Assembly: GCF_000282095.2 (NCBI RefSeq)
Contig: NZ_AKKC02000015.1
Location: 434,001-498,000, forward strand
Direction: 5' to 3'
DNA: 64,000 bases
From: Rhizobium sp. CF080
Lineage (GTDB): Bacteria; Pseudomonadota; Alphaproteobacteria; Rhizobiales; Rhizobiaceae
Shown here: one piece after another, positions 5,272-24,910 of the stretch
How the letters are laid out: every line of letters starts with the position of its first letter
How positions within the stretch are numbered: position 1 is the stretch's first letter
The notes under the pieces: generated by a model
The model's database searches: none
What the model was told of the DNA's origin: nothing
Seen by the model: only the letters and a program-made list of their open reading frames with translations
Made by a program: the position numbers and the translations under genes

Positions 5272-7292
5272 CCAGCCAGCCCGCCGCCCCTGATCAATCC
5301 GCTTACCGTCGCCTGACGCTGCTGATCGATTACGTTCTTTTGCCCGCGCTGGAGGATCGCCTCGACGATCTGGTCACGTGACGTCCCGGTGGCAACGCTC
5401 AGCTTGCCGATGTCCTCGGCCAGCTTCCCGGCGTTAGTCTCCGCATTGCCCTGCACCATGCGCTTGATGATCGATCGAGCGAGGCGGGCCGTCGTGCCGG
5501 CGATAGTAGCGTCAGACGGGACTTCCTGCCCCTTCGCAACTTCGTCGAGGAACTGGTTGAACCGGGTGCCCATCGCCGTGTCAGAGCCGCGGGTAACGCG
5601 ATTGGTGGTGTCACCGAACACTGTCTCGCGGTCGATCGCGTTCAGCACGTTATCGGCCGGCTCCTGGCCGAACAGCATCCCGAGCTTTTCCCGGTTCCAG
5701 TCGCCCTCCCCCCGAACAACTTTGCGCAGCGCGTTTGTGTCGTTCGCCTGGGTCCCGATCGCCCGATACACTTCCCCCAAAGCGCCCTGCCTCATGCGAG
5801 TCGGTACACCGGAAGGCCCGACCATCATTCCTTCCGGCAACGCTCCGGCGTTAAGCGCCTGATCGAGTTCGACCGGGCGCATCGCGCTTGCTTCATTGTT
5901 GAGAATCGGTCGACCTTGCCCCAGAGCTTCCCGCTGGCGAGCCAGCTCGTGGTATTGGGCATCGACCTCCTTGATCCGTGGCACAGAGGCTCGCAAGCCG
6001 TCGTCGATCATCTGGCGGGCTTCCGTCAGTGCGCCGATGACCTTATCGTCTGTCTCAGTCGTCAACATGCCATCGATAGCCTGCCTGGTTTGGAAGGCCA
6101 CGGAAGGATCGGCCGAGACATTGTTCTCGCCGAAATCGTTCATCATCGTGCGGACTTGCTGAAGCCGGCGCTGCGCATCGCCGCGCAATGTCGAAACGGA
6201 ATGATCAAGGTCGTCGGTGATTGGGGTAAAGTCGTAGGGCTCTCTTCCGGCCATGACCGGACCGTATTGCCGTGCAACCTGTCCCTGGCTGTCCCGGAGG
6301 CTTGCATCAATCCGCGATGGCACAGGATCAGGCCCTAGGCTGGTTTCGACGTCGGAACGCAGCCGCGTGTTCGCGAGGCCGGCGCGTTCGTTGAGCGGAT
6401 CCACGATCAGCCCGCCCGTTCCGGGCCGGGCGGCTGCGCCACGAGCAACGCCAAGCCATTCCGGCGAGACGTCGGCCAGCATCGCTTCCGGCCCCAGGTC
6501 GTCGAGTGAGGACCGATACCGCGCGACCTTGCTTGGATCGGACAGCTCATTGACGACATATTTGCGGGCCTGATCTGTCATCGATGAAAGGGCGTCATTG
6601 CTTTCGCCAAGGATTTTGCGGGTGAGCGCGGACACGGCCTTATTGGCGCCTGCTGCGACGGGCATGAGTGCGGGCCCGACGACAGCCCCAGTCAGGCCTT
6701 CTATTCCTGCCTGCTTGGCTCGTTCAGTAGCGCCGCCCTCACCCGCACCGAATCCCTGCACTAGACCGGTCGCCGCACCAGAGCCACCTGCAGATATCAA
6801 CCGCGCGCCCGTAGAAGCCCCCGTATTACCCAGCGCATAGTTGCCAATCACCGGCGCGGCCTTGAGAAGCGCCCCGCCCGATCCCACCCCGCCGGCAATC
6901 TTGAGGCCGGTCGAGACATACGGATGGTCGTTGTCGAACTCATCGTCTTTTCGGCGCTGGATGCCGAGCGCCTGGTCATATCGCTCGCCCCAGGTCGCGC
7001 CAGGGAGTTTTTCATACCCCTGGTCAGGCAGCATCGGGTCAACAAGCGGCGCCAGTGTCGCATTTGTCGCCGCGTTCAGCTCGTCGAGATAGGAGCCGAT
7101 ACCGAGCGCGCCACGCGCAACGGACCGGACGCCGCCCGCGATGCCGCCAGATCGCTTAGGCCGGCTCCCACGGCCACCGGCGGCCATCTGCTGGGCAATC
7201 TCGTTGACGGTCGCCTCCTGATCCTCCGCGGAGAGGGTCTTGAAGCTGTCATCGACCGTGACCTTGACGCCGTTGACGGTAAGGGTCGCCAT
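5241..7292 (-). CDS. Large internal virion / ejection-type protein
   Basis: 683 residues. ATG 7292 overlaps the upstream stop by one base (TAATG). The first 35 residues form a small module (MATLTVNGVKVTVDDSF, then SAEDQEATVNEIAQQM) that I recall from other phage and prophage internal proteins. Residues 50-230 are Gly/Ala-rich with several hydrophobic helices (VSTGLKIAGGVG, LTGAVVGPALMPVAAG), as in proteins ejected with DNA. The rest is helical. Last of three large structural genes before the tail fibre. The exact role is inferred from position. Confidence 0.6.
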   Translation of the reverse strand: MATLTVNGVKVTVDDSFKTLSAEDQEATVNEIAQQMAAGGRGSRPKRSGGIAGGVRSVARGALGIGSYLDELNAATNATLAPLVDPMLPDQGYEKLPGATWGERYDQALGIQRRKDDEFDNDHPYVSTGLKIAGGVGSGGALLKAAPVIGNYALGNTGASTGARLISAGGSGAATGLVQGFGAGEGGATERAKQAGIEGLTGAVVGPALMPVAAGANKAVSALTRKILGESNDALSSMTDQARKYVVNELSDPSKVARYRSSLDDLGPEAMLADVSPEWLGVARGAAARPGTGGLIVDPLNERAGLANTRLRSDVETSLGPDPVPSRIDASLRDSQGQVARQYGPVMAGREPYDFTPITDDLDHSVSTLRGDAQRRLQQVRTMMNDFGENNVSADPSVAFQTRQAIDGMLTTETDDKVIGALTEARQMIDDGLRASVPRIKEVDAQYHELARQREALGQGRPILNNEASAMRPVELDQALNAGALPEGMMVGPSGVPTRMRQGALGEVYRAIGTQANDTNALRKVVRGEGDWNREKLGMLFGQEPADNVLNAIDRETVFGDTTNRVTRGSDTAMGTRFNQFLDEVAKGQEVPSDATIAGTTARLARSIIKRMVQGNAETNAGKLAEDIGKLSVATGTSRDQIVEAILQRGQKNVIDQQRQATVSGLIRGGGLAGYSSLPGVRN

Positions 7293-9576: not shown

Positions 9577-10907
9577 CGTGCCGCACCTGCCTGGAAGAGC
9601 GCGCCATAATTAACGCGGCGATATCCGTCATTGCCCTTCCGGACCGCATCCGGACGAACCTTCTCGACTTCCTGCGCCATGACGCCGATCCGCTTTGGAG
9701 CGCTCTTCGGCTCGCCCTTGTACCGATACTCGTACAGGCCGCCGACCTTCTTGACGTCCTTTTTGGCGTCCTCGTCAGAAAGGCTGAACAGACTGCCGAT
9801 GCCCCCGAGCACTGACCCGAGGCCCGCCTGTTTTTGCTGGTAGGCGGCAAGGTCGTTCTGATACTTCTGGCTCACCAGCCCGGCATAATCGACGTTCGGC
9901 AGACTCTGGCCCTGCGTCGGCACAAAGTTCGGGTTATCGACAGGAGACCCCGCCAAGAGGGCCGAGATTTCATTGATCGGCTGGCTCCGCTCCGCATAGG
10001 CTTCGTTCAGATACTGTGCCCGGGCGGCGTTCTGGGCGTTGATCCGAGCCTGCTCGGCGTTGAACGTCTGATCCAGAAGCGCGTTGTTGGCCCCCGTCGC
10101 ACTGGTGTTGTTCTGGTACATCTGCTGATCGGCAGAATTCGCCAGTTCGACGTCGCCCATGTTCTGCGCATAGCCCTGCTGCTGAGCCGCGTTCTCGAAC
10201 GACGCCTTGTTTGCAGCGAGGCCAGCAAGCCGAGATTGTTCCTGCCCCGCGTTCAGGATCGCGCCGTAGCGAGCGTCATTCTCCTGGCGGGTCGCCGCGT
10301 CGATCGCACGGTTGTAGGCCTCCGAGCCGGGCTGAAGGCCCTGATTGATCAGCTTCGTTTCGAGCGCTTCCCGGCTCTGCGCCAGCTGCGGATTGATCCG
10401 CTGCATCAGCGCATCTTCGTATTTGCTCGTGTCGAAATCGATGTCGTAAGACTTGGTGATGTCACCGGCAGGACCGGCGCTCGTCTGAAGCTGAGGGCCC
10501 GCGCCGTATTGCTGATATGTCGGCGTCTTGAGCGAGGATGGGTCACCGGCAGCAGGGGCATCGTCGAGCGAGAACGGCGTACCGAGCAGGGTATCCAGCC
10601 GGCCGGACTGGTTTGCAGCCAGGGTCCCAAGATTTAGGTTCGCCTTGTCGGTCTGATCTTTGATCGCCTGCTGCTGCGGCGACAGGGTCTGCGTCACCGT
10701 CGTCGTCGGCACCTTGTAGGTCTGCCCCGTGGTCGGGTCAAAGATGTCACGGGACTCGCCATAGGTATAGTTCAGCGTTCCATCCGGCGTGACCTGATTG
10801 ATGTTGCCCAGGTAGGAGTTCGCAGTCGCCGTCGCGACATTGGTCGCAGTCTGCGCAGCTGCGGTTTCCTTGGGGTCCGGAGACTTGGGTGCGTTCTTAC
10901 CGCCCAT
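9573..10907 (-). CDS. Virion protein with S74-type C-terminal domain
   Basis: 444 residues. The N-terminus (GGKNAPKSPDPKETAAAQT) is typical of podovirus tail or internal proteins. The middle is a long Gln/Ala/Asn-rich helical region. The last 70 residues (LSDEDAKKDVKKVGGLYEY, IGVMAQEVEKV, RVNYGAL) match the peptidase S74 intramolecular chaperone domain, which trims and trimerises fibres and spikes. Here the usual catalytic Ser may be that in LSDED. It overlaps the GNAT gene by 11 bases. Confidence 0.7.
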   Translation of the reverse strand: MGGKNAPKSPDPKETAAAQTATNVATATANSYLGNINQVTPDGTLNYTYGESRDIFDPTTGQTYKVPTTTVTQTLSPQQQAIKDQTDKANLNLGTLAANQSGRLDTLLGTPFSLDDAPAAGDPSSLKTPTYQQYGAGPQLQTSAGPAGDITKSYDIDFDTSKYEDALMQRINPQLAQSREALETKLINQGLQPGSEAYNRAIDAATRQENDARYGAILNAGQEQSRLAGLAANKASFENAAQQQGYAQNMGDVELANSADQQMYQNNTSATGANNALLDQTFNAEQARINAQNAARAQYLNEAYAERSQPINEISALLAGSPVDNPNFVPTQGQSLPNVDYAGLVSQKYQNDLAAYQQKQAGLGSVLGGIGSLFSLSDEDAKKDVKKVGGLYEYRYKGEPKSAPKRIGVMAQEVEKVRPDAVRKGNDGYRRVNYGALFQAGAAR

Positions 10908-11388
10908 CTGCTGCCTTCCTTTGTGCGGCGCGTTCCCGCGCCAGTCGTCGAAGATTGTTTCCTGCCCACGCCTCGCGCGTCAGGACGAAGAGGTTTTCAG
11001 CTGCCGCCGGGCCACGAAGACGCGGGATGCGGTATCTATCAAAGCCGTAGGCCGTGAGCATGCGATGCTGTGCCGTGTCCTCGTCCGACACGCGCTGCAC
11101 CACCGCTTGGCAGCCGACAGAATTGAAGGGGTATCCGTACATGACGCTGAGAACCGGCCTCGTCAGCCAGCCTTTGATCCAGGCAGCGGCAGAGATTTCC
11201 ACGACACCGGCGTCGGGGTCATAGTTGTGATAGATGAGCCCCGCCGCGAGTTGGTCGCCGTCGACCACGGCAATCGCGCGACAGATCCCGAAAGTATGTC
11301 CCCCGCCCGGCCAAATTCGCTCCGCCACGAGCTCCGCCAACTGGTCGGTTGCTTCGCCCTTCGGGAGAAGCCCGCAGTTGAACGTCAT
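10897..11388 (-). CDS. GNAT-like acetyltransferase in structural operon
   Basis: 163 residues with the fold pattern of GNAT enzymes: a central beta strand (AIAVVDGDQLAAGLIYHN), a following strand (GVVEISAAAW) and a late helix (DTAQHRMLTAYGF). Similar small acetyltransferase-like proteins occur among tail genes of many podoviruses, where they may modify or assemble the tail; whether they acetylate is unclear. Coupled by ATGA to the upstream stabilisation gene. Confidence 0.65.
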   Translation of the reverse strand: MTFNCGLLPKGEATDQLAELVAERIWPGGGHTFGICRAIAVVDGDQLAAGLIYHNYDPDAGVVEISAAAWIKGWLTRPVLSVMYGYPFNSVGCQAVVQRVSDEDTAQHRMLTAYGFDRYRIPRLRGPAAAENLFVLTREAWAGNNLRRLARERAAQRKAADGR

Positions 11389-22412: not shown

Positions 22413-22689
22413 CCGTCAGGTCATCCATCTGGTTGATATTAACGTTCAGGTCCTTCGGCATCAGCGAGGCCACGACCTTCAAAAAATCCTGCGGGCGCTT
22501 CTCGATAACGGTCTGGATTGCGGCCGGTCCCTGGCTCTCCCAGGCGGCAAGCAGATCCTCAATGAAGGCCTCGCCCAACTTGCTGCGGGCACCCTTAGGT
22601 CTCCCCGGATTTCCCGGCTTGAACTGGTGCTCGACGGGGGGCTTACCCTTTCCCGTTTCCTTCCCGTTTTTTCGGGGATCGTCGGTCAT
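22300..22689 (-). CDS. Terminase small subunit-like (DUF5681)
   Basis: 129 residues. The N-terminal FKPGNPGRPKGARSKLGEAF is the DUF5681 signature, found in many phage genes directly before the large terminase. The rest is helical with an acidic middle (DDLTDEQLLERIRTL). Likely recognises phage DNA for packaging. First gene of the late operon; its 3' part overlaps the large-subunit reading frame. Confidence 0.75.
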   Translation of the reverse strand: MTDDPRKNGKETGKGKPPVEHQFKPGNPGRPKGARSKLGEAFIEDLLAAWESQGPAAIQTVIEKRPQDFLKVVASLMPKDLNVNINQMDDLTDEQLLERIRTLDAAIRPFLDAEGAGRAAGRDGPETAH

Positions 22690-22775
22690 GGCTCAGTCTT
22701 TCCCTTTGCGAGGGCATGTGCGAACTTCTCATGCCGTGCGTTCTTCAGGAACGGCATGGGTTACCGTGGGAGCAA

Positions 22776-23234
22776 ATGATTTTGACGATTTCGGATGTCG
22801 CCGCGTTTTATGCGGCCATTGTTGCCACTGGCGCCTTATTTCTTGAGGTCCGCCGATGGTTCGAGAGTGGCGTGCGGCTAAGGGTTAGCGCATCTCATCA
22901 ATACGACATGCCGGAAATGCGGCACCACATCATCGCGGCAGAAGTGTCCAGCATCGGTGATACGCCTACCACCATAACAGGGCTCGACATCTGGGGTTAC
23001 CCGTCAGTGCTCCATGCGTTATTTGGCCTATCCCGCACAAGGCTCGGCATATTCGACACAACCACATTCGCAACGCCTAAAGGCTTGCCCTATCAGCTCG
23101 CCCCTGGCGATCTGTGGAGCGGAGGTCTCGACTTTAATACGCGAGAGCTTTCAGACCCACGGTTTGCGATAGCCTACTTTGCCGTAAAGACAACGCGCTT
23201 CGACAGTCCGACTTTCCGACGCATTAAAATGTAG
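22776..23234 (+). CDS. Membrane-anchored moron protein (152 aa)
   Basis: ATG 22776 follows GGGAG. One N-terminal membrane helix (ISDVAAFYAAIVATGALFLEV) is followed by a soluble beta-rich domain (LRVSASHQYD, ITGLDIWGYPS). Such one-helix proteins are often phage exclusion or unknown accessory factors. It sits rightward between the NusG-like gene and the late operon. An upstream ATG at 22716 would put extra residues before the helix and lacks a site. Confidence 0.6.
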   Translation: MILTISDVAAFYAAIVATGALFLEVRRWFESGVRLRVSASHQYDMPEMRHHIIAAEVSSIGDTPTTITGLDIWGYPSVLHALFGLSRTRLGIFDTTTFATPKGLPYQLAPGDLWSGGLDFNTRELSDPRFAIAYFAVKTTRFDSPTFRRIKM

Positions 23235-23310
23235 GTTGCCCAATAGTGCATCCTATGCGAACCGGTCCATCGTCGGCTCATGGAACGGCTTGCTCTCCGA
23301 AATGTTCGCC

Positions 23311-23353
23311 GTAACGCGTTACGAACGTTACGCGAGTGTCATCGTAGCGTTAC
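23311..23353. repeat. GTAACGCGTTAC palindrome with half-sites
   Basis: A perfect 12-base palindrome GTAACGCGTTAC at 23311-23322 is followed by AACGTTACGC (23325-23334) and GTAGCGTTAC (23344-23353). A related TAACGTTACGC lies at 24368-24378, just upstream of the NusG-like gene. Possible regulator binding cluster. Confidence 0.4.
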
Positions 23354-23399
23354 AAGAGTTGCTTGGCGCCGAGTGACATGGGCAACCCGGGAGAGCGGA

Positions 23400-23666
23400 A
23401 TGGACGATAATACGCGACGTATGCAGCACCTAAGCAGCACACATGATGGGGCGGCAGCAGTTGCTGAAGAGGCCCTCTCTGCCCTAATCCATTGCCTGGG
23501 CGTTAAAGCCCTTCCAATCTTAGATGACATGGAAACCCGGCTGAATGACCGTTACAAGAATTCGGGAATACCCGCAGAACATGAAATGCGGCACGTCGAA
23601 GTAGTGAAGCCGGTTCTTGACGAGGTCACACGGTTGATCTCTAAAGCCAGAGCTCAACTGATATGA
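23400..23666 (+). CDS. Small hypothetical moron protein (88 aa)
   Basis: ATG 23400 has GGGAGAG upstream. Helical and charged (AVAEEALSALIHCLGVKALP, RHVEVVKPVLDEVTRLI). The GTAACGC palindrome cluster lies just before it, in what would be its promoter. An upstream TTG/ATG at 23280 would run through that cluster and gives an Arg-rich leader, so I prefer 23400. Function unknown. Confidence 0.5.
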   Translation: MDDNTRRMQHLSSTHDGAAAVAEEALSALIHCLGVKALPILDDMETRLNDRYKNSGIPAEHEMRHVEVVKPVLDEVTRLISKARAQLI

Positions 23667-23826
23667 GCGCAGGGTGCTGCTAGCGCCCTCAAATCTAAGG
23701 AGAGCCAGCGAGCAGAATTTTGGGCGCATTTCTGGACAGGGAGGAAAGCAACTAGCCTTCCCGTGGCCCCGTGGGTGATCCTTAGAACCCCATCTGCAAA
23801 TCAGGCCAAATCAAGTTGCGCACAAT
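23667..23826. other. Intergenic gap with no clear gene
   Basis: 160 bases between the convergent moron and NusG-like gene ends. Apart from a weak GGGTGC/GCGCCC hairpin near 23677 I see no gene, terminator or repeat. Confidence 0.4.
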
Positions 23827-24339
23827 CTAAGCCGCTAGGCGGAGATTTGCAATACTGAGTTCGATTTCGCGCATGTTCTCAACGCTTTCCACAATCGCCA
23901 TCACGGCGCGCTTGCCTTTGCCCTTGGCTCTGGTGACGCGGGCATAGGCGCCGGCCAGCGGGCCGGACTCGATCCGAACCCGGACATCGGGCGCGAATGA
24001 GGCGGCCGGTGGTGGCCGCAGGATATCGTAGTCGCCGCGGTTCTGCGCCTCGCAAAGCTCAATGACAGCCTTTGTCGGGATCGGGATCGGTCCATCGGAG
24101 CCGCCGAGGACGGCCTGAACGTGATCCATCTTGCGAAGGGCGTCGAAATCAGCCTCGCCATGTAAGGAGCCGAACACATAGCCGCTGAACAATGGAAACC
24201 GCCTCATTGACCAGCTTTTGGTCTGATAATGCATGACTTCCCGCCTGATGACCGGGGCAATCGCATCGATCCCGATTGCCTCCAGCTCATCGAGGGCTAG
24301 GGATTGGCGACCTGGAGCCGTCCTGAGAACATACCACAT
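23827..24339 (-). CDS. Phage NusG/RfaH-like transcription factor
   Basis: 170 residues, close to RfaH length. The start MWYVLRTAPGRQSLA matches the NGN domain opening (WYxVxT), FPLFSGYVFGSL (48-59) matches the conserved P(L)FPGYVF motif, and residues 118-145 (VRIESGPLAGAYARV) match a KOW motif. NusG-family proteins ride on RNA polymerase; specialised paralogs suppress termination in long operons. Here it is encoded immediately upstream of the roughly 22-kb late operon. That suggests late antitermination, but no target element is identified. Confidence 0.8.
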   Translation of the reverse strand: MWYVLRTAPGRQSLALDELEAIGIDAIAPVIRREVMHYQTKSWSMRRFPLFSGYVFGSLHGEADFDALRKMDHVQAVLGGSDGPIPIPTKAVIELCEAQNRGDYDILRPPPAASFAPDVRVRIESGPLAGAYARVTRAKGKGKRAVMAIVESVENMREIELSIANLRLAA

Positions 24340-24367
24340 TTTGAACCTCGACCGTCCCGTTATGATC

Positions 24368-24381
24368 TAACGTTACGCATA
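24368..24381. promoter_or_regulatory. TAACGTTACGC site upstream of NusG-like gene
   Basis: Lies 29 bases before the NusG-like start and repeats the core of the palindrome cluster at 23311-23353. Possible operator shared by the leftward NusG-like gene and the rightward moron. Confidence 0.3.
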
Positions 24382-24403
24382 GCACATTCTTGGAATCATT
24401 GCA

Positions 24404-24910
24404 CTATTCGGCCATCACGAGGCGGTATTCTTCCGACAGATAATCACCGGTTTCGTCCCGTGACTGTCCCGCCAATGTCATGTGAGCGATGCCCATCATC
24501 GAAAGTTCGTCGGCGCGCTCGTTGCCCGCGATCCCCGAATGGCCTTTGCACCAGATCAGCTTCAGGGGGTAGATCGTCAAAACCTCGTCCAGGGAGCGCC
24601 AGAGGACGGGGTTCTTGATCTCCTGCTTGCCGCGCTTCCAGCCCTTGGCCTTCCACTTGTGCCGCCAGTCGTTGCAGCCATCGACCACATAACGCGAATC
24701 CGACAGCAAGGCCGCCTCCCGGCCGGCACAGTTCACGGCCATCCAGGTCAGAGCCCGCAAGGCGCCTTCCAGTTCCATACGGTTGTTTGTGGTCTCGGGA
24801 TCGCCGCCGAACTCGCTATGGATCTCTGCGCCATCCTTATAGGCGACGAAACCCCAGCCGCCTGGGCCGGGGTTCGGTTCGCATGCGCCATCGCAATAGA
24901 CTTCGATCAT
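24404..24910 (-). CDS. rnhA: Phage ribonuclease HI
   Basis: 168 residues with all active-site residues in place: Asp7 (YCDGA), Glu46 (NRMELEGA), Asp71 (LLSDSRYV), Asp134 (NERADELS), and His124 in WCKGHSG. It cuts the RNA strand of RNA-DNA hybrids, useful for primer removal or resolving R-loops in phage replication. The GGWG and NNRMELEGAL blocks are textbook. Coupled by ATGA to the upstream zinc-finger gene. It is a second, phage-owned copy besides the host enzyme. Confidence 0.95.
   Translation of the reverse strand: MIEVYCDGACEPNPGPGGWGFVAYKDGAEIHSEFGGDPETTNNRMELEGALRALTWMAVNCAGREAALLSDSRYVVDGCNDWRHKWKAKGWKRGKQEIKNPVLWRSLDEVLTIYPLKLIWCKGHSGIAGNERADELSMMGIAHMTLAGQSRDETGDYLSEEYRLVMAE

Follow-up and report, generated by a model that had tools for sequence, protein, structure and literature searches.

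What does a NusG-type protein do in a phage when its gene lies ahead of the late region, in the slot where lambda carries Q? The question is raised by a prophage of Rhizobium sp. CF080, found in a 64,000-nucleotide stretch of contig NZ_AKKC02000015.1 (hereafter the window; coordinates count from its first letter). Phage antitermination is known to proceed through N, Q, Nun-related and P7-like proteins or through put RNA. As for the NusG paralogs studied so far, those treated in the available excerpts of two papers (PMC12691694, PMC7819879) act on host or plasmid operons. We found no phage-encoded NusG paralog in the accessible parts of the open-access literature, and an earlier report may exist elsewhere. 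No open-access paper was found on the NusG-like gene of a Rhizobium phage with a terminase, and the word 'phage' has no occurrence in the main text of PMC7593976.

The NusG paralog and its surroundings

The gene and its neighbours are arranged as follows.

24404 to 24910, minus strand: RNase HI gene, just upstream of the paralog gene; the order is the same in the metagenome phage L002
23827 to 24339, minus strand: NusG paralog gene (NGN + KOW), 170 aa, ATG to TAG
22716 to 23234 and 23280 to 23666, plus strand: two rightward ORFs, variable cargo between leader and terminase genes
1391 to 22689, minus strand: late region, the presumed target, with genes for a probable TerS, TerL, portal, scaffold, major head, tail, fibre and lysis

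The initial annotation had read the product as an NGN plus KOW protein, which was borne out by Pfam, PHROG, AlphaFold2 and Foldseek. The 170-aa protein matches PF02357 (NusG) with 43.8 bits (cut-off 22.2, E 3.9e-11), and PHROG 6386, 'transcription antiterminator', matches residues 2-167 (E 2.3e-28). Among NCBIfam models the top score belongs to UpxY (50.9 bits, cut-off 100); LoaP gives 36.3 bits (cut-off 125), RfaH 30.2 (cut-off 144.5) and the housekeeping nusG model 19.2 (cut-off 135.7). As all four stay under their cut-offs, the paralog belongs to the superfamily but falls outside these named subfamilies. Structure modelling and a search against NusG, RfaH and LoaP, the check proposed with that annotation, gave an NGN-like fold: the AlphaFold2 model (19-row alignment, mean pLDDT 86.9, pTM 0.61) predicts an N domain resembling NGN and, at the C-terminus, a KOW of five strands. 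Foldseek against the PDB placed NusG (E 1.4e-9 and 1.7e-8) and recruited RfaH (2.4e-8) first, with full-length query TM-scores of just about 0.3-0.6; against viral models, it returned matches named RfaH and NusG from uncultured phages. Elsewhere in this genome, PF02357 matches only the housekeeping NusG, to which the paralog is 22% identical. The NGN and KOW domains, beside a separate housekeeping NusG, confirm the protein as a NusG paralog, probably a specialised one. No close relatives of it were found in a search of genome contigs. The Phe of the housekeeping KOW motif SIFGR matters for the contacts of E. coli NusG with Rho and NusE; at this position the alignment has Val in the window paralog, Leu in L002 and Phe in locus L064, so that the residue gives no simple indication of a lost Rho contact.

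Read leftward, the late genes extend from 22689 to about 1391, and their Pfam and PHROG matches comprise TerL, an SU10-like portal, scaffold, major head, structural and tail proteins, an amidase, a tail fibre and an endolysin; by position, the first gene probably encodes TerS. The paralog gene had been described as lying directly upstream of a leftward late operon of about 22 kb. The leftward late region holds, at about 21 kb, but strict adjacency does not, as 1137 bases with the two rightward ORFs separate the paralog gene from that of TerS. Neither ORF has a PHROG family or a Pfam match above cut-off. On the late strand, this gap of the window contains no ORF longer than 70 aa, so that the first 1.1 kb or so of a late transcript from upstream would be largely untranslated, and Rho acts on RNA of this kind. 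A 68-base stretch just before terS (22709-22775) recurs at 82% in the cargo of L002 (7493-7560), upstream of further cargo, and is perhaps a recombination point for cargo exchange. Within the late region, an acyl-CoA N-acyltransferase (PHROG 4470, host take-over category) is encoded at 10897-11388 on the minus strand.

Upstream of the paralog gene, Pfam and PHROG identify the RNase HI gene, two genes annotated without function and a weakly replication-like gene. The intergenic stretch between the RNase HI gene and nusG (24340-24403, minus strand) looks near-identical to that of L002, although the paralogs are 65% identical. It contains TGCTATGC, which resembles an extended -10 and is perhaps nusG's own promoter or an operator.

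Among viral contigs, only L001 and L002 matched. The former is the same prophage (99.98% identical over 6332 bases), while L002 shares the gene order and has about 2.7 kb of different, opposite-strand cargo. A search with TerL yielded matches in 490 loci; the 80 best served for the analysis. Among these, 42 loci have at least 6 kb upstream of TerL; an iterated profile found a NusG-like gene there in 23 of them (one, L097, is doubtful at 18 bits), and there is none near TerL in the other 19, so the paralog is dispensable to this terminase type. Pfam NusG was found in four of six records of the NusG-bearing group (not in L045 and L097) and in one of the 19 others, L060 (25 records, perhaps fragments), where it sits in an 86-kb record far from the TerL region. 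Two proteins are each common to 14 of the 19 relatives without NusG: PHROG 15385, a 206-aa protein of unknown function (e.g. L075:685-1302, L092:1535-2086), and a protein with a DnaA_C-type helix-turn-helix. They are possible alternative late regulators.

The counts given below refer to 68 NusG-like genes: that of the window, 24 from the TerL search, 14 from an alignment search of the main group and 29 from genomes. The alignment search gave 28 loci, 14 of which were added; the others (L116, L118, L119, L120, L122, L127, L128, L132, L133, L137, L138, L140, L141 and L143) were dropped because they repeated a contig of the TerL search or had a leader equal to that of another locus. The genome loci are the best 29 beyond the window's own. 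A NusG-like match (E up to 1e-3) occurs in 111 of 297 genomes of the bacterial family, and many weaker matches resemble housekeeping NusG in their range. L001, L037 and L084 were left out of the 68 as the same sequence as the window, L002 and L082, respectively.

The promoter-like gene end and the leader element

The end of the paralog gene and the adjoining bases contain the following features, all on the minus strand.

23847 to 23852: -35-like hexamer TTGCAA, within the coding end of the paralog gene
23824 to 23829: -10-like hexamer TAGATT, which opens with the stop codon and is spaced 17 nt from the -35
23715 to 23817: leader element, the predicted first ~100 nt of late RNA, with the start placed from the -10 spacing
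23806 to 23812: 5' box GATTTGG, which may pair with the 3' box (a suggestive case, without significance in the window by itself)
23772 to 23792: helix TGGG (23792-23789) / CCCA (23775-23772)
23742 to 23762: main hairpin, GGGAAGGC [TAGTT] GCTTTCCT
23715 to 23727: 3' box GCGCCCAAAATTC, end of conservation

The last eight codons of the paralog gene, together with its stop codon, form a sigma-70-like, promoter-like sequence, TTGCAA-N17-TAGATT. The hexamers of the window agree with the consensus in part only, and a generic promoter scan reported no promoter in this stretch. The arrangement recurs among relatives, many of whose genes end in TTG-N3-N17-TAGATT or a similar sequence with the -10 starting on the stop codon: a slot consisting of TTG and, 17 nt after the hexamer, the TA of the stop codon is filled in 39 of the 68 NusG-like genes and absent there from 29. 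When the proteins are clustered at 70% identity, 12 of 38 clusters have it, with every member in each of those 12; one of their loci, L023, has no recognised leader. Among other ORFs of at least 150 codons in the same loci, TTG occupies the slot in 19 of 1743 and TTG with the TA stop in 3 of 1743, some of these six-frame open frames not being genes. A first control (5/1745) contained nusG copies, whose removal gave the latter figure.

About 100 nt are conserved right behind the promoter motif, and conservation stops after the 3' box. An ops-like element had been suggested between 22690 and 23830. A conserved element is indeed present, at 23715-23829, but it does not have the short form of ops; it looks like a promoter followed by a structured leader of about 100 nt, and its logic looks closer to that of LoaP, put or qut than to the short ops of RfaH. 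Rfam gave no match up to E 1 in 22600-24600.

Covariation statistics were taken from three alignments, A2 (14 rows), A5 (27 rows, window and L002 included) and A6 (12 rows, second phage family, see below); an alignment of 21 diverse leaders, A1, was left out because distant hairpins were misplaced in it. In A5, the three helices are paired in 95.1% of cells, and pairing falls to 48-59% when the partners are slid by 1-3 columns. Cells changed on both sides number 16 versus 4.4 in shuffles, counts that kinship among the aligned rows inflates. For paired cells, doubly changed cells and the covariation score, none of 500 shuffles reaches the observed value; pairs changed on both sides (43/500 shuffles) and further pair types (208/500) are unexceptional. 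The corresponding figures in A2 are 2/500 for paired cells and 124/500 for pairs changed on both sides. The TGGG/CCCA helix is almost invariant and thus provides little evidence from covariation.

The main hairpin was also assessed by its position, since the significance of hairpins in the last 62 nt was weak. All 17 representatives have a stem at a distance of 16-21 nt before a 3' box of the type CCAAAATTC, with stems as diverse as GGGGAA/TTCCCC, ACCGCC/GGCGGT, GTTGGC/GCCAAC and GCGGAT/ATCCGC; the combined p is 5e-9 for 3' boxes placed by eye and families that are incompletely independent. Taken singly, the hairpins are weak, with p values of 0.015-0.081. A closing helix between the 5' box (GATTTG) and the 3' box is suggestive: within-family pairing beats between-family pairing across 16 families (105/50000 permutations), and the same test reaches significance neither in the window by itself nor in the largest family. 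An earlier run (2/20000) had used 21 rows, some from related families, with one box misplaced. The leader of the window is one of the weaker cases, with a hairpin p of 0.054 and a closing helix that falls short of significance.

A covariance model built from 14 sequences was run on 79 sources (L001, L037, L084 and L116 onward excluded) and gave 19 matches, 18 of them behind nusG ends, including its 14 own members. The matches to non-members are L085 and L069, behind nusG genes, and L082 and L083, behind a truncated nusG end; the weak one in L074 (E 0.5) is taken to be a chance match. Among the best 80 of the 490 TerL matches, none of the 19 relatives without NusG near TerL matched the model, a zero that is partly due to its reach, as it misses the most distant leader types. 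No element was recognised in ten of the 68 loci (L014, L018, L020, L021, L025, L027, L029, L032, L033 and L097).

In L082 and L083, an intact nusG and its leader are followed downstream by a truncated C-terminus of nusG and, behind it, a second leader copy (at about 5340-5534), as if this copy were the trace of a cassette exchange that left an older cassette behind a newer one. In L079 and L087, inspection by eye shows tRNA-like sequence just after the element.

As for named phages, the isolated Rhizobium phage RHph_TM3_3_3 has the paralog gene, the promoter motif TTGAAA-N17-TAATAT and a first-family element, followed by a tRNA, small genes and the terminase; the tRNA is a tRNA-Met gene in its cargo (L144, 1347-1422). 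No leader was recognised in Bradyrhizobium phage ppBjS10J-1, and a stretch of L064 had no blastn match among named phages.

A second phage family and its terminators

Thirteen genome loci from the same bacterial family (L008 and others) constitute a second family with a NusG-like gene. Its nusG genes have CTTGC in their last 30 nt (13/13) and mostly end in TGA (11/13), and they are followed by a different leader with a long hairpin. In A6, which comprises 12 of the 13 loci (without L023), the paired cells, doubly changed cells and covariation score of the outer stem are reached in none of 500 shuffles. In L147, the one locus of this family tested against PHROGs, the downstream TerL, portal and major head belong to PHROG families unlike those of the window.

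An intrinsic terminator starts 133-196 nt after the stop codon, on the leader strand, in 8 of the 13 loci, where 0.3 would be expected; on the opposite strand, terminators occur in 1 of 13. In the window family, terminators are not enriched (3/45 versus 1.4 expected), and the window itself has none. These counts cover 45 and 13 loci, the ten without a recognised element being left out. The record of Nostoc phage Nsp-JY10 (L146, PP395642.1) contains a rhizobial leader of the second type with a terminator; given this leader, its host label may be questionable.

A candidate late antiterminator and its alternatives

We consider it probable that the NusG paralog is the late antiterminator of this phage, occupying the slot of lambda Q and loaded via a structured RNA leader. 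In favour of a role at the late operon are the conserved synteny, the promoter-like gene end, the covarying leader and the terminators behind the analogous leader of the second family. What can be read from the sequence itself is the protein type, the gene order, the promoter-like motif and the covarying leader, with the terminator in the second family. In this reading, host RNA polymerase would start late transcription at a promoter embedded in the end of the paralog gene, and the first ~100 nt of the late RNA would fold into the leader element. The paralog, made beforehand, would be loaded on the polymerase through the leader RNA and would exclude host NusG. In the window family, the loaded paralog might then blunt termination that Rho or NusA assists while the polymerase crosses the cargo in the untranslated leader; in the second family, it might blunt the intrinsic terminator just behind the element. 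The polymerase would thereby reach the structural and lysis genes.

In lambda, the Q gene is laid out with pR', qut and tR'. The rhizobial arrangement may resemble it in the succession of antiterminator gene (here a candidate), late promoter (here a promoter-like motif), loading site (here putative) and late operon (see also PMC6606751 and PMC7171158), and in the second family a terminator, the possible counterpart of tR', stands behind the leader in 8 of 13 loci. However, only NusG-type families match the paralog, not Q. Moreover, the site bound by Q is promoter DNA; the covarying part here lies in the predicted transcribed leader and the promoter-like motif inside the gene end.

LoaP of Bacillus velezensis is likewise a NusG paralog that adjoins its long target operon (dfn, mln), and the portion of PMC12691694 available describes a small RNA hairpin in the 5' leader that is needed and bound, together with a leader terminator. 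In the predicted late RNA of both rhizobial families, covarying hairpins lie in the candidate 5' leader, to which the paralog may bind. LoaP differs in serving host antibiotic operons rather than a phage; the element here is larger and the candidate promoter lies in the end of the paralog gene. UpxY of Bacteroides capsule operons, the best NCBIfam match, also stands for NusG paralogs acting on leaders of adjacent operons, in the excerpts at hand, but the UpxY leader is upstream of its gene, whereas here the leader is downstream of the paralog gene. GafZ of the Caulobacter GTA is another alphaproteobacterial antiterminator of a head-tail gene cluster; according to the available part of PMC11150451, it works with host NusA, NusG and NusE, and it is not presented there as a NusG paralog.

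An RfaH-like mode of action, in which a short element in the non-template DNA recruits the paralog at a pause and the RNA folds are of little import, is unlikely. The paralog and RfaH share the superfamily, the NGN and KOW domains and a similar length, and recruited RfaH is among the best Foldseek matches; RfaH also acts on long operons, with ops-type recruitment as its known route (PMC7819879, in excerpt). However, the KOW of the paralog is modelled as a beta barrel, as opposed to the alpha hairpin of free RfaH, and a structured leader stands in place of the short ops. The covarying stems, of at least six pairs, span more than a transcription bubble, which is shorter than such stretches, and this fits RNA better than a melted DNA strand. 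Their sequences differ between families while their position is kept.

Distinctly unlikely is a leader that is a self-acting, put-like RNA or a small RNA, with the paralog serving another step such as early transcription. There is a precedent in HK022, whose put RNAs, of about 70 nt with two stem-loops, work without a phage protein, one of them just 3' of a phage promoter, as the structured RNA would be here (PMC9378689, in the part available). Nevertheless, put acts alone and on early genes, whereas here a cognate NusG paralog is encoded alongside and the genes are late; wherever recognised, the element is right behind a nusG end, and it was not found in the tested relatives without NusG.

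It is quite improbable that the TTG-N17-TA pattern simply results from conservation of the KOW C-terminus, with Leu-Glu or Val-Asp near the end, and is no promoter. Many members do have such ends, and the uniformity of the last nine codons is only moderately unusual (0.89 versus 0.73 elsewhere, a value reached by 2 of 114 other stretches). However, the window and L002 build the hexamer TTGCAA from other residues, Ile-Ala-Asn, and L082, L087 and L079 have the pattern despite an unrelated C-terminus. In L046, L069, L074 and L022, where a small ORF follows nusG, the pair adjoins the element and not the stop; furthermore, the leader starts at the expected distance.

Conserved non-coding DNA close to terminase genes is often a packaging site, yet it is very improbable that the block is a cos/pac site or another DNA signal, with the paralog acting elsewhere, as it adjoins the nusG stop and not terS (1.3-5.1 kb from nusG stop to TerL start in the 24 loci measured), has its second copy in L082 and L083 behind a truncated nusG end, forms covarying stems that suggest RNA, and gave no model match in the 19 similar-TerL relatives without NusG, where very distant forms may have escaped the model.

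Returning to a paralog loaded through leader RNA, a promoter in the gene's 3' end and a loading RNA at the 5' end of the transcript would allow gene, promoter and RNA to move between phages as one cassette. We are inclined to extend this reading to rhizobial temperate phages with at least two types of head genes: their late operons would be run by a NusG paralog that replaces Q, with the late promoter in the 3' end of the paralog gene and an RNA of about 100 nt that loads the paralog, the three moving together. As the named phage RHph_TM3_3_3 has this arrangement, the proposal is testable. If it is true, these phages would offer a naturally occurring collection of covarying leader RNAs, with their cognate proteins, for the study of target choice by NusG paralogs, and phages would also enlist the universal elongation factor family for lytic control.
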